Assembly (NCBI RefSeq): GCF_000002985.6
Contig: NC_003283.11
Location: 13,702,001-13,766,000, forward strand
Source of the DNA: Caenorhabditis elegans
Taxonomy: Eukaryota; Nematoda; Chromadorea; Rhabditida; Rhabditidae
Direction of reading: 5' to 3'
Length of the DNA: 64,000 nucleotides
Shown: positions 3,094 to 11,017 of the stretch, one piece after another
How positions within the stretch are numbered: the first letter of the stretch is position 1
How the letters are laid out: every line of letters starts with the position of its first letter
The notes under the pieces: model-generated
Told to the model about the DNA's origin: nothing
Database searches by the model: none
The model's input: the letters and a program-made list of their open reading frames with translations, nothing else
Translations under genes and position numbers: made by a program

Positions 3094-6000
3094 ATGCTTC
3101 GTATTCTCCTATTAATTGTTATATTTTCGTCAAGTTGGAAGGAAGTTCATGGACAGTTGAGTAAGTGTATTTTGACTCCAAGGCAACGTATGCCTGCACC
3201 AGGAGTGTTTCGTAAAATTTACTGGGCTACAGAAATTGTTGTATTTTTCTAATAGACTCAAAACTATACCAAAACTGAATTTCATAATGAGACCTCTTGA
3301 AAATGTCTTTCAAAAAATTTCAGTTGTGGTTTAAAGTTTCGAAAACTGAGAAAAAAGACCCACACTAATGCTAAAATAAGAAAATCAAAAAAAAAAAACC
3401 GAACTTCACAAAAAACTACGAAAGTTACGCAGGTATGATACCTGCAGATGTGCCTGCCTACCACATAATCGATAGTTTTAACTGCTTATTTTTTTTAGGA
3501 TTATGTGAAGCCGAAGGATCATGTCGACATTGTGCAGACAGTAGATATTCATACTATCGATGCCGTATGCAGGATGACTGTTTTATTGGCGAAATCTGTG
3601 ATAATGGATTTTGCTGTCCCAACGTTTTGCCAACATTTTCTCTTCAACGAGAACGTGAGTTTCTATCTTGTTTTATTTTTTGCCTACAATTAACTATCAA
3701 TACTTTTACTAACATAATCTAACACACTGCACTATTTCTCAGCAACTAGTCCTAAACCAAAAAGACCATTAAATATCACATCGGATCCCCCAGCTGATGA
3801 GCCATGTCCAGATGAATCTAGATGGTCAAAAAGGTGCTCAAGAGATGAGGATTGTACTCATCAAGAAGAACTTTGCATCGAGGGAAAATGTTGTAAAAGT
3901 GCGTTTATTTTTTAAATTTGAAACCAAAGTGTTTATCTTCTTTGAAATTAGCGTAATAAAAAAAGAAATAAAATAAAGTTGGAGGTCATAGAATTGAGGA
4001 AACAAATGTGATCGAGTCATTAAACTGTTTAGAGGAAATCGAAGTATGACGAAAAATATTTGACTCGACGTAAAAAGTTTCACTTGTTTGATTCAAGATC
4101 ATTCGATAGTACGGGGTTTTATAAGCGCCCAGGTTGAAAATATCGAAATGCATTTTTGATATAACTTCAGAATCTGAGATATCAATCAGTGAATATAATG
4201 ACATTCCTTTGATATTTGAATCTGGGTAAAATGGGTTATTAAGCAACTGATGAGCTTTTTCATCAGCAAATGTTATATGAAGATCGATGGATGTAATGAT
4301 AACAAATGAATTAGAAGGAATGGTTACTGTAGAAAGAACTGGAGTAGGCATTGGATAACATGCAATCATTCTAGTATTTGTATTTGGACCCATTGTAATT
4401 TCTAGACGAAGAACCTTGTATCCAGGTGAAGCACGAACTGCATCCTTGTTTGCTCGCTTTGTGAGACTAGATTTAACACGTACGTTGCACATTTGAGGCC
4501 AATTAAGGTCACAATAGTTAAGGGCCTGTAAAGAGAAATTACTACATTTAGTCAAAAAATTCTCTGAGATTGTGCGAAAATGACTCCAAAATGATTCCAG
4601 TTAGGAGTTGCTTTTAAAAAACAGAAAAAAAATTAAAAATATATATTAAAAATAATATATATTTTTAAAAAATGTTTTAAAAATTATTGCAACTTAATTA
4701 GGCTACAGCTGTAAGCTTAAACTTCTTTCCATACTTGATTTCAGGATGTTTTTGTGAAAGTTCAAAACTTGTAACTATAATAAAATATTTTTCCTGAATT
4801 TAATTATGTTAAATCAAAAACTTAAAAGTTACCGAGTTAAAGCAATTGATATCCTGTTCATGAATATAATCAACCATCGCGTTGCCAGTCATTTCAACTT
4901 GTGACAAGCCCAAGTAAATACTAATAGTTTCACTTATGTAAAGTACATCTCCGCGCCTGTCCAGTATCACAAAGAATCCATCTAGTAGCTGAAATTGAAA
5001 TTAAAAAAAAAACGGTAAAAAACCATCCTTACATCTAAATGATTGTTAGTCCATAAAGAGTCACTTCCATAATAATAGTCAGCTGAACTGTAGGCTCTTT
5101 GAGATTGCCCAAATATATTGTGAAGTTTGATATAAGCAGTTGCTAATCTAACCATCGTTGTTTTATCAATATGCTGTCCAGAAATTGCTCTTGCCAATGG
5201 AAGTTCATTGGCTAGCTGTGAGAATTCATAATTTTCCATTTGTCTTCTCTGCTGGGCTTGTGATTTTGACGGTTTTTCTAAAATATTGATTTGTTTCTTT
5301 CAAAACATATTTTCTAAAATTGCTTACGTTTTTCTTCAGAAAGATTAGTCTCCATTTCTCAAGTGGTTATAAGTCAAGCGACAAATAAAATACATATAAA
5401 AAATAAATGAATGACCCAATATGTACAAGCTCTCATAATATATAATTAGCATGCAGATCATGCCATTCGAGAGCCAAACTAATTACACAATATGACATAC
5501 AATTGAATTCTCCCCTCTTTGTCTATTTCAAATTTTTGTAGCATGTGCAATGAGGAGACGAGAGCTTCTCGATGAGCTTAGATCGTTGGAAATTGTTGGA
5601 CAAGCGATACCACTATGTGAGGAAAGTGGATTGGCATGGAGAAGAAGGTAAAAGGGAATTCAGATATTGAATAGGAACATAGTGAGAACAGTATTAGTTA
5701 CAAAGTTTCAAATTTAGCTGAAGATACCCAATATTCTCAAAAATATTTGTAGCATCACAGACATCTCACTATCAGACTACAATAAACCCAATTTCAGACA
5801 ATGCTTGGCTGGAACAGAAGTTTGTTGGTGCGTGACAAGGTATGGAAGAAGATTATCCGGAAAAGAAAGCAAAGACGAAAAGGGATGTGAAACTGTGAGA
5901 AGAAAACAAGAAAATCTTGCATTGAAAGCTGCTGCATTATTAAGAGAACAAAAAGAAAGGGAAGAGGTATCAATCAGTTCTCTAATTTCAAAAATTCAAG

Positions 6001-8963
6001 ACATATTTACAGACATGCAAGAGTACATCACCTGGAGAATGCCCCCTCCCGTTGAACACTTCTATAACCACACTAACCCGTTGCTTCTGTGATTCTGAAT
6101 GTGAACGGGGATCTAAATGTTGCCCCGGTTCCATAACTAACTCTAACTATCACGCTTGCTTACCAGCATTAACAAAAATAATGAACGAACCTATTTCTAA
6201 TGAAAGTCTGTTGTCTGCCTAAACTAGCTTCTTATAACATTTTACATTTTTTCAGTAAACCCAACGATTGCCATGGTATGTGGCGCGAATGAGCAATATT
6301 CAGCATGTTTCTCCTCTTGTCAACCATCATGTCAAGATCCTTCAACACCAGCTTGCCCGGCTCCCGGATGCCAACCTGGATGCATTTGCCTACCAGGTAA
6401 CTTTCGATAGTTAACTATATATTAACTCTTCATCATTGCTAGGATACATCCGACGTGACAGCTCTCCCCGTTCAGCATGTGTTCCGCGAGGCTTGTGTCA
6501 AGCTTATGATCTGACGATTCGTTGTGCAGACGAGAAAAGGCAATATCAGACATGTGGAAGTGCATGCCCAATTAGTTGTGCTACAAGAAATCAACCGAGA
6601 TGTAATGAGAGATGTGTGACTGGATGCTTCTGTAAAATTCCGTTTATCCTTGAAAATGCAGACGATCCTCTTCATTCAAGGTAGGTTAAGCTTAAACTCG
6701 GAAGTGGCTGCTGATTTAAAAAAAATTCTCCATTTTTATATTACTTTTACAAGAAAAATATTCACATTGGGAAAACTTTAACAAGATTTTGAACCGAATG
6801 GACAAAACTCGATTAAACCGTAACAGAAACTTTAAAATTGGTCTATTTTCAGATGCATTCTTCCATCTTCGTGCCCCGAAATCCCAACACCAGCGCCAGA
6901 AATAGTTGAGCAATTTGTGCAGCGTAATCCTGGAATGATTGGAAGTTTTGGAAATACGAATATTCAATATCCAACCTCCCCAAGAGCTACACCATCTCCC
7001 GTATTCACTACTACCACTCGTGGATTAACAACTTCACAACAAAAACTTCCCACTCTTATTCCCGAGCAACACTGTGAACATCCATTGAAAAACTATCAAA
7101 GCTGTGGAAGCAAGTGCCCTGCATCTTGTGATCGACCTCTTTCACAAGCAGCGTCAATTGACTGTGCTCTTTCTTGTGAACCTGGATGTTTCTGTCGACT
7201 TCCGTATGTTCTTGCCGATTCGAAGGATCCAAACTCCACATGCATTCTCCCTCAATTATGTTCTAGAAAATCAATTCCACCATCAACTGCAAGCGTTCCA
7301 GCATCCCAATCTTGCCCGGATCCAAGAAAAGAATGGAGTCAATGCGGAGCTCTGCATTGCTCAAGATCATGTGCGAACCCTCTGGGTCGATGTGGCTCCG
7401 GACAATGTTTTTCAGGATGTGTTTGTCGTCAGCCATACGTGCTCCTTCATCCAAATGATCCAACATCAAGATGTGTTCTTCCTGCAGAATGTGACAGAGG
7501 ATGTGAGGATCCGACAAAGGAATTCATGACATGTGGTAGTTCATGCCCAATGGGATGTGATAATCGTCATCCAAAAAATTGTGCTCCATGCCAGACTGGT
7601 TGTTTCTGTAAGAATGGCTTGGTATTTGAAAACTCTGCCACGTGGCACACTTCTAAATGCATTAAAATAGAAGAATGTCCTCCCGAGGAAGAAACAACTA
7701 CAGAAGAATCTACAACAACCACTACTACAGGTAAACTCACAGAGCCAGTTTATAAAAAACTTTGATGTTAGTACTGCAAATCAAAGTGAAACTTAATGAT
7801 TTTTCAGAAGCATCAGTCCCTCCAGCCACCACCGTAATAGCTGAAGTACATGAAACACGTGGTCGTCCATTTTCATCCGATTCTGATCTTCTTGCACTCA
7901 AGCCAACTGTATCACAATCCGAATGCCCTGCTACAACTTTTGATGTCGGCGGTCGTGGATGTAATACTGATATGGATTGTCCAATGGAACAAAGATGCTG
8001 TCGACCAATGATCGTCTCCCTGGGAGTGAATCCTCAGCGATGTGTATGCCCGGATAAACATGCAGTCTGGTCTTCTTGTGGAACTTTATGCCCAGAGTAT
8101 TGTGGACAACCATCAGTTCCAGTATGCTCGGGTACATGCAGTGCCGGTTGTCATTGTGCCCCTGGCTTTGTGAGAGCTCGAAATGATGTTACTGCTCCGT
8201 GTGTTCCAAGAGAAAGTTGCTCATCTTCACTTGGATCATCGACAACAAGCCGGATGAGGATATCTCCTGTTGCTGCGAGTATGGATGAACCTATGAGATT
8301 TGCAACAATTCGAGAAATAACTCCACATGATGCGTTTGTAGATGATACAGTGAGTTTTTGAACTGCTCCAATAAAAGATTGAATAGAAACTTTTTCCGGG
8401 TAGAGTAATTATTTTTGGTAATTCTACAAAATGATTGTAGAATAATAAGGACTGTTTTGTGAGTATATTTCAAAATTTTATAACTTATTTCTCATTACAA
8501 AACTGTAAATTTTTCAATTTTCCAGATAGCAGTCGCAATTTTAATTACGAGAGAGGGAGCACATATTGGCCGTTTCACATTTTCCCAACTGACAAGTACA
8601 GCTCTTCGAATTCACGGAGAAGTATATACTCTTCCAGTTGGTCGTCATGCAGTTGTTCTTCATCAATTCGGTGATTCTTCTGAAGGATGCTCACGCGTTG
8701 GCGCTCCATTTTCGAAATCACTCAGTCCATCGTTGGGTGACATCACTGAAACTGGAAAATTTGATCGAATAGTTGAATGGCCAGTTATTGATGTTGTTGG
8801 AAGAGCTGTGGTTATTTATTCGTAAGTCATTTGAAACAGTGAGAAATTGGAAAGTTATGATGTTTTCAGATTTTCCACAGCCGAATGGAGTTTACGAGCA
8901 CATTTCGGTGAAAAACCTCTTGCTTGTGGAACGATTGGAATCGCTAAAGTTAGAGCCCGATAA
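3094..8963 (+). CDS. Secreted Tg-1/WAP-like/TIL protein with C-terminal Cu/Zn-SOD-like domain
   Basis: My model has 12 exons in consistent phase: 3094-3160, 3499-3654, 3743-3898, 5542-5647, 5798-5966, 6013-6205, 6256-6396, 6443-6680, 6853-7730, 7808-8349, 8526-8821, 8870-8963 (about 1011 aa). The donor at 6206 (GTCTGT) is weak. Order: signal peptide (1-21); two CC-ended cysteine modules; a thyroglobulin type-1 repeat (~127-218, with CWCV); a WAP-like module; five trypsin-inhibitor-like (TIL) domains (~285-600, CxxGC and CxC patterns); a Thr-rich linker; a WAP-like module; a sixth TIL; then ~883-1008 resembling Cu/Zn superoxide dismutase ([23 protein letters not shown]). TIL, WAP and Tg-1 domains commonly inhibit proteases, so a secreted inhibitor is the family-based guess. 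The SOD-like part keeps the disulfide cysteines but lacks most metal ligands. AATAAA at 9067-9072. The third intron contains hlh-34. Confidence 0.8.
3986..5355 (-). CDS. hlh-34: bHLH-PAS transcription factor (SIM/NPAS type)
   Basis: Exons on the minus strand: 5355-5328, 5277-5033, 4988-4833, 4525-3986, giving 322 aa. All phases agree. A basic helix-loop-helix lies at ~10-65 (basic [12 protein letters not shown], then a second helix [12 protein letters not shown]). PAS-A starts at ~92 ([19 protein letters not shown]) and a PAS-B-like region occupies ~225-320. It should be a nuclear DNA-binding protein that dimerises with an ARNT-class partner (AHA-1 in nematodes). The whole gene lies antisense inside intron 3 of the TIL/SOD-like gene, in a 1.64-kb intron. 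Minus-strand AATAAA at 3904-3909. The ~185 bp between its ATG and the host's exon 4 is all that is free for a proximal promoter. I recognise the sequence as hlh-34; the protein is short for the family and lacks a long transactivation tail. Confidence 0.85.
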
Positions 8964-9371: not shown

Positions 9372-11017
9372 ATGAGTCAATCAATTTCAGATAGGCTTGT
9401 TGCTGGAATTTCAGTAATTTTGGTGTGCAAGTTTTTTAAAGAACATTTCAAAAATTGAACATTTCTAGATATGCTTCATCGGCTTATTTCTGAACGGTTT
9501 AATATTTTTCAAGTTTGCATGCCCAAAACAATTGAAAAATGGATTTCACGTTTTGTGCCTTTCGAAATCAATAAGTAACTCAATTATTTGTATCATCAGC
9601 TTGTTTTGGGTTGGTCCGGCCATTCTCTTGTAAGTTCTTATAGGGACCTGGCAGGAACGAAACTTTATAGCTACAGTACTTGCAAGTGTTTTGACATTTA
9701 ATCATATTTATCCTTATTTTGCCCGATTATTCAAATATTTTTTGATAATCTTGTTGTAAAACACAATAATTGAAAAGCTATGAAAAAAGAAAATCACAAA
9801 ATATTAAACAAAACGATATTGTACTTGCGGGTACTGTAGTTAAAAAGATTTCCTCGTGCAGAGACCCAAGTCCGTGATCTTGAAGACTTACTACAATATT
9901 ACACAAGGAAAAATAACGTTTCCAGAAATAACTTATTCCTCCCACTTTTAATTAATAAATTTCTGGGTCAACTGACTGAATACGGTGTCTATCTTATGGG
10001 TCCACTGACTCAAACTTTGATGGGTGTTGAGAGATTTTTTATCATATTTTTTCCTCTAAAAATATCAGATTATCAAAGATGCAGGATTGCAGTATTTTCT
10101 ATAATTTCCTGCTGGATAATGTCATCTGGTTTTACGGCGGTTACGTATCGAGGTTAGATGTTTTTCCCTTTATAAAATATATTCAGATTTTCGTGAGGAA
10201 AATTTTATTTATCTTTTTTAAAAATTTTTGTTAACAGTTTCAGTTTTTCAATTATTACTATTTGAAAGAAAGTTATAAATTTCAATCCGTAACCGTCTTT
10301 CGCGGTGGGACTCATACTGATAGATCCGTGTGCATTTAAGTGAGCGTATCAGTAAACTGTAGAGTTACGATACTGTACTTTTTAAAGGCGCACAGCTTTT
10401 TATGCGGTATTTATTTCTGTTAGTTGTGAGAACCGTTACAGTACTTTTGAGTTACTCAATGTTACTGAATTTTCAGATAATTGCTGGGTCTATTACTCTA
10501 TCATTTCTTTCAACTACGACTCAGAAAACGATAATTGCGACAATGTTAATCTCGATATTCTCAAATTAATCTGTTTGGTTTTAGCCGTTTTCAACGTTGT
10601 TGTACAGATTCTTAATTTGATTAAGATCAAACTAATGGTATTATATTTTAACTAGAACTATTATTTTCTCCATAAATTAATTTTCCAGTTTTCAAAACAA
10701 TCAAGAACAGCTTCAAGTCAAAGACGGCGCCGTACATTGAGACTTTTCATTCAAGTTAGTAGCATTTTATCATGTTTTTCTAATGAATTGTAAAATTTCA
10801 GAGCGTTATTCAAGATTGCCTGTATGGTTTAGATCTTTTAAATTCCTGCAATTTCTTCTCAGTTCACAGCGTGCTTGGCCAATTTTTCATATATACATTC
10901 TCATTGCTGTTCGTCCATTCTGCCGATGGACTTATAATATGCCTTTTCCATTTCAATGCTTCCTGCCGTCGAAGAAAAATTCAAAACTCTAATGGTAACC
11001 TGGTAATTGTGGCGTAA
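9372..11017 (+). CDS. Serpentine chemoreceptor, srx class
   Basis: Six exons in my model: 9372-9422, 9469-9629, 9926-10152, 10477-10637, 10689-10754, 10802-11017, ~293 aa. Seven-TM nematode receptor features: TM1 ending in GLFLNGLIFFKF, TM2 with LCLSKSISNSI, TM3 NKFLGQLTEYG...GPLTQTLMGVERF (the srx-type 'GPLTQ...NRF' motif), FFPLK at the cytoplasmic end, a Cys-containing loop (DNCWVYY), basic loop 3 (RRRRTLRLF), and TM6/7 with LFVHSADGLIICL. Such proteins act as chemosensory GPCRs in ciliated neurons. Most phases fit well. The exon 1 donor (GTGTGC at 9423) is weak, so the N-terminus is uncertain and exon 1 damage cannot be excluded. The stop overlaps an AATAAA at 11016-11021. Introns 2 and 3 carry dispersed repeat sequence. 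It converges with the zinc transporter. Confidence 0.75.

Follow-up and report, generated by a model that had tools for sequence, protein, structure and literature searches.

Organization of the gene and its surroundings

The window analysed here is a stretch of 64,000 nucleotides of Caenorhabditis elegans DNA, taken to belong to chromosome V (NC_003283.11, positions 13,702,001 to 13,766,000), and positions below are counted from its first letter. A gene predicted to encode an array of TIL domains and a C-terminal domain similar to Cu/Zn superoxide dismutase (SOD) was identified on its plus strand. We refer to it as the TIL/SOD gene and take it to be T01D3.3. The following features were assigned, residue numbers in the SOD-like domain being those of human SOD1.

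3094-8963, plus strand: whole gene as predicted, 12 exons, 1011 aa, one open frame across GT..AG introns, rebuilt by hand
3094-3160, 3499-3654, 3743-3898, 5542-5647, 5798-5966, 6013-6205, plus strand: exons 1-6
5544-5879, plus strand: thyroglobulin type-1 domain in exons 4-5, aa about 128-189 (Pfam Thyroglobulin_1, E 1.9e-12, isolated fragment)
6031-6132, plus strand: WAP-like domain in exon 6, aa 225-258 (Pfam WAP, 2.5e-5 for the better of 2 stretches; genomic ends set by hand)
6256-6396, 6443-6680, 6853-7730, 7808-8349, plus strand: exons 7-10
6279-8218, plus strand: six TIL domains (Pfam TIL, 4e-33, 6 stretches, whole protein)
6279-6496, 6523-6872, 7073-7259, 7313-7490, 7502-7678, 8041-8218, plus strand: the single TIL domains, approximate
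8526-8821, plus strand: exon 11, contributing 98 codons plus 2 bases to the SOD-like domain
8822-8869, plus strand: intron 11, 48 nt, in frame, containing TAA and TGA
8870-8963, plus strand: exon 12, encoding the final strand of the SOD-like domain (LACGTIGIA, with the second Cys) and the stop codon
9067-9072, plus strand: AATAAA, which may be the gene's poly(A) signal (pattern only)

All 11 introns of the model are bounded by GT..AG. The donor of exon 6 is weak (AAA/gtctgtt), and an alternative GC donor after position 6157 likewise keeps the frame, giving a protein that lacks 16 residues in the stretch linking the WAP-like domain to the first TIL domain. Exon 11 covers the SOD-like domain from its first strand onwards, includes the first Cys and the zinc loop, which is shortened, and stops shortly after the His120 position. 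Its stop-to-stop frame contains no Met, which makes it unlikely to be the start of a gene. In a codon-usage comparison trained on exons 1-10, exons 11-12 scored 0.264 per codon in frame. The two remaining forward frames scored -0.411 and -0.709, but one reverse frame reached 0.206, so codon usage backs the frame of these exons only mildly. The first-pass annotation had assigned the last two exons to the inhibitor-like gene, and this agrees with the model, in which they continue exons 1-10 within the single 1011-aa frame. The five peptides that it quoted are all present in the translation, and its length of about 126 residues for the two exons becomes 129 after rebuilding.

The N terminus of the protein resembles a signal peptide when judged by eye. 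The Thyroglobulin_1 match was obtained with the fragment only and is not listed for the whole protein, its genomic ends being set by hand. A Cys-spacing pattern recovers 5 of the 6 TIL domains; the fifth domain and the end of the fourth were placed by eye. EB- and Dickkopf-like matches near the N terminus lie below the Pfam cut-off. The protein contains 96 Cys, only two of which fall in the final 131 residues. Taken from its signal-like N terminus and Cys-rich domains, the protein is apparently extracellular, and its TIL domains make it look like a predicted serine-protease inhibitor. The TIL, thyroglobulin type-1 (Tg-1) and WAP domains found by Pfam thus bear out the earlier description of the carrier as inhibitor-like. 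When paralogues of the TIL and the Tg-1/WAP parts were sought in the worm genome, with 6 and 3 candidates scored, only the TIL/SOD gene itself was recovered. Other TIL genes presumably exist in C. elegans; together with the small numbers of candidates, this means that the search does not imply that these parts are unique.

Several other genes lie nearby. A bHLH-PAS gene is located on the minus strand within intron 3 of the TIL/SOD gene (about 3986-5360), with Pfam matches to bHLH_HIF1A (3.3e-6), PAS (2.9e-7) and, below the cut-off, PAS_11 (8e-5); we take it to be hlh-34. Directly downstream, exons of an Srx-type 7TM chemoreceptor occupy about 9840-11017 on the plus strand (Pfam Srx, 4.5e-16, 2.1e-5 and 8.1e-11), and the Ser/Thr-rich, mucin-like coding end of an upstream gene, probably T01D3.6, occupies 1-1242 on the plus strand. 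These Srx exons and this Ser/Thr-rich end agree with an origin from cosmid T01D3. The name T01D3.3 was not found in the literature searched. In the passages searched, T01D3.6 and T01D3.4 were the only T01D3 genes found, the former listed as a MUC2 orthologue (PMC11083455) and the latter named srx-96 (PMC3651406).

Homology of the C-terminal domain to Cu/Zn SODs

The Pfam Sod_Cu profile matches the 131-aa C-terminal domain, aa about 881-1011, with 30.0 bits (E 7.9e-7), above the cut-off of 28.9. Against the whole protein the score is 23.4 bits (8.5e-5), below the same cut-off, and an annotation relying on that cut-off would therefore miss the domain. The Sod_Cu match reaches profile positions 3-55 only. 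A phmmer search of the PDB, run with E up to 1, returned 131 distinct sequences, and the 60 of these that were listed are all named superoxide dismutase; among them the best single-domain match has 1.1e-6, and the top match (1.7e-10) consists of two stretches. A SOD profile built from 80 bacterial and 3 worm SODs matches the N and C halves of the domain in the correct order. The N half scores 23.3 bits (best of 1000 shuffles, 7.9; 796 shuffles with a reported score) and the C half, which the Pfam match stops short of, 7.4 bits (best of 1000 shuffles, 4.3; 714 reported). With a second profile, made from 160 SODs and human SOD1, the N half scores 30.1 bits and the C half only 4.9. Profile alignment by hhalign gives 97.5% over 123 columns and, in a second run, 97.7% over 125 columns. 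The domain shares 28-29% identity with SODs, and its local alignment scores against the three worm SODs, human SOD1 and one bacterial SOD are 91-107, compared with a top shuffle of 50 (300 shuffles each). On these comparisons, the C-terminal domain is a real Cu/Zn-SOD homologue, with a similarity beyond chance. The SOD landmarks named in the first-pass annotation are thus upheld by Sod_Cu, phmmer, the shuffle-controlled profiles and hhalign, and the profile search it proposed for exons 11-12 succeeds on the domain alone, though not on the whole protein.

The genome of C. elegans (100,286,401 bases, 7 contigs) was searched for related sequences, only the best candidates being scored, exon by exon. 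Sod_Cu has 8 matches at E up to 10, one in the TIL/SOD gene and 7 in three other loci, which are presumably sod-1, sod-4 and sod-5. The SOD-like domain itself has 5 matches, two in its own gene and one in each of the three SOD loci; a second copy of the domain was not found among these candidates. Relatives of exon 11 were also sought in viral contigs, where 12 pattern matches yielded 0 confirmed cases. Among the worm enzymes, the extracellular SOD-4 scores highest by a small margin (99, compared with 95 and 91 for the other two), and human SOD1 scores 107. The intron donor of sod-4 lies 4 nt from that of intron 11 in the aligned codons. Around the codon for ligand 120, window positions 8808-8833 are near-identical to sod-4 (L015, reverse strand), both reading GTGGTTATT, followed by CAT in sod-4 and TAT in the window. 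The nearly shared donor and codons, and the slight lead of SOD-4 over the other two worm SODs in score, are weak hints that the domain descends from an extracellular SOD; SOD-4 differs from the domain in keeping all seven metal ligands.

Structure prediction was also performed. AlphaFold without an alignment gave no usable fold (pLDDT 30.7). Supplied with 77 bacterial SOD rows, it gave a model with pLDDT 74.8 and pTM 0.73, in which the first strands reach about 90, seven strands have at least 3 residues, compared with the eight of the SOD barrel, and the stretch 103-126, which includes intron-encoded residues, is poor. A Foldseek search with this model gave 206 PDB matches at E up to 0.001. 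Every one of the 50 listed is a Cu/Zn SOD, and among these the query TM is 0.56-0.64 and the rmsd 3.9-5.9. Since the model was guided by an alignment of SODs and includes 16 residues from intron 11, it constitutes no independent evidence for the fold. The structural check that had been proposed thus comes out SOD-like with SOD rows, as dependent evidence, and fails with the single sequence. The domain would fold as a SOD barrel held by a disulfide.

Loss of the metal site

In Cu/Zn SODs the metal ligands are six His and one Asp, and a catalytic Arg precedes the final Cys. In the SOD-like domain, His48 (the His of HQFGD) is retained and is the only certain ligand of the seven. His46 is replaced by Val, His63 by Pro and His120 by Tyr, and in the hand pairing His71 and His80 have no partner, as they fall in a shortened loop. 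By the same pairing, the stretch from Gly61 to Asp83 has 13 residues compared with 22, that from Asp83 to Gly114 has 20 compared with 31, and that from His120 to Cys146 has 20 compared with 26; the last loop of the bacterial SODs aligned is also shorter, so this third difference alone says little. The catalytic Arg143 is replaced, the sequence here being FGEKPLACG. The disulfide positions Cys57 and Cys146 are both Cys in the hand pairing and are the only two Cys of the last 131 residues, the bond itself being predicted. For comparison, each of the seven ligands and Arg143 are present in 160/160 SODs, Cys57 in 84/160 and Cys146 in 142/160, although these 160 are the best matches to active SODs and were retrieved partly with patterns that demanded the His46/His48 region.

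Most of what the first-pass annotation reported about this site stands, namely the retained His of HQFGD, the two disulfide Cys, the loss of the remaining His ligands and the replaced Arg. Its statement that the Asp of LGD remains is unsafe. The hand pairing alone keeps this Asp at position 83; hhalign and MAFFT both place a Ser there and set the Asp of the window opposite Asn86. Judged from these residues, the domain very probably no longer binds Cu or Zn in the manner of SODs and has no dismutase activity, and a working dismutase is very unlikely. With its metal site lost, it probably serves as a binding or structural module rather than as an antioxidant enzyme. Homology, ligand loss and the TIL/Tg-1/WAP carrier together support the earlier reading of a structural pseudo-SOD in a secreted inhibitor-like protein, and the sequence and model comparisons produced none of the outcomes that the first-pass annotation had named as refuting it.

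Relation to known SOD derivatives and possible role

Metal-less extracellular SOD-like domains are already known as a kind (PMC13017621). Cavortin and dominin of oysters and pernin of mussels are described as SOD-derived extracellular proteins without SOD activity, members of which reportedly bind metals or microbial molecules (PMC6530089), and four of the six extracellular Cu/Zn-SODs of C. gigas are stated to be inactive (PMC9118643). A passage citing Scotti 2001 describes pernin as a serine protease inhibitor (PMC3660371). The worm protein resembles these bivalve proteins in having a SOD-like domain whose Cu site is lost, His46, His63 and His120 being replaced here. It differs in that the bivalve proteins consist of SOD domains (three in pernin) and are major plasma proteins that form particles, a TIL array going unmentioned in the passages concerned (PMC6530089, PMC3660371). 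CSRPs are predicted to be made of extracellular SOD barrels without the zinc site, and some of their repeats, as well as whole CSRPs of some arthropods and tardigrades, also lack the Cu site; the passages on this family report no CSRP in Nematoda (PMC13017621). They form tandem arrays of 4-12 SOD domains, unlike the worm protein with its one Sod_Cu stretch. Domain II of CCS is likewise a SOD fold without the Cu site within a multi-domain protein, but CCS combines it with an ATX1-like domain and retains, in the human protein, an intact Zn site (PMC13017621), neither of which was found in the worm protein; its Pfam scan at E up to 1 contains no ATX1-like family. Compared with TIL serine-protease inhibitors, which it resembles in its six Pfam TIL domains and in the Cys pattern of 5/6 of them, it differs in its SOD-like C terminus. 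A SOD domain fused to another secreted protein is described for Daphnia vitellogenin (PMC2678069).

The explanation we favour, with a probability of about 0.6, is that of a secreted-looking inhibitor-type protein whose C-terminal, SOD-derived domain is metal-less, is no dismutase and holds the TIL inhibitors in position by binding or capping. Whole-domain homology, ligand loss, shortened loops, the Cys pair and one continuous gene model form the part of this explanation read from the sequence; to these we add by inference the SOD barrel with its disulfide and the binding or capping role. The SOD-like domain would bind a protein or a surface, or form a cap, and would thereby place the TIL inhibitors; it may have been recruited for binding, as the metal-less, extracellular SOD-like proteins found in bivalves seem to have been. 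The first-pass annotation had already inferred that it is possibly a binding module. A bolder and rather unlikely version holds that the metal-less barrel is joined covalently to serine-protease inhibitors as a targeting module, and that a dead SOD and protease inhibition have been paired at least twice in animals, in the bivalve pernin type and in the nematode. Such proteins might serve innate immunity or regulate the cuticle or extracellular matrix. The pairing is suggestive in view of the serine-protease inhibition reported for mussel pernin.

Three other roles for the domain appear improbable. It might heterodimerise with an active worm SOD, most plausibly the extracellular SOD-4, and so tether or regulate it, as domain II of CCS does with SOD1 (PMC13017621); C. 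elegans is moreover described as having no CCS (PMC11083455). The interface motifs FGD, VGR and GIA are retained. However, of 17 dimer-interface positions, 9 are kept, compared with a mean of 6.6 in matched draws, and 601 of 5000 draws reach 9. As a test of heterodimerisation, interface retention was thus negative, these positions being no better kept than equally conserved ones elsewhere. Nor is it likely that the domain retains some loose metal binding by other residues, with a role in sequestering metal or with weak activity. Cavortin and pernin reportedly bind metal ions though SOD-inactive (PMC6530089), and about 1% of SOD activity per chain is reported as kept in D. magna (PMC2678069), but in the worm domain at most 2 of the 7 ligands are left and the zinc loop is cut. 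A domain that drifted after loss of the enzyme and has no role beyond capping the C terminus would fit the high divergence (28-29% identity) and the single copy found in the genome; the conservation of both halves, both Cys and several core glycines in an open frame makes such a relic doubtful. By far the least probable alternative is that the SOD similarity arose by chance or that the exons belong to another gene. The sub-threshold Pfam score of the whole protein points that way, and it is opposed by the profile tests, the Met-less frame of exon 11 and the in-frame splicing from exon 10.

No nematode protein in which a single metal-less SOD domain follows a Tg-1 domain and six TIL domains was found in the open-licence literature searched, although databases such as InterPro and WormBase may already have this domain annotated. 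SOD derivatives are the subject of a 2026 review, which treats CCS, Cu-only SODs and CSRP and mentions dominin, and whose main text contains neither the word elegans nor trypsin (PMC13017621); in an account of worm redox genes, sod-4 is called the last sod gene (PMC3415087). The gene that encodes this predicted binding or capping module would add a nematode branch to the metal-less SOD derivatives, in an animal that is easily knocked out, and would open to test what the SOD fold does after it has ceased to be an enzyme.
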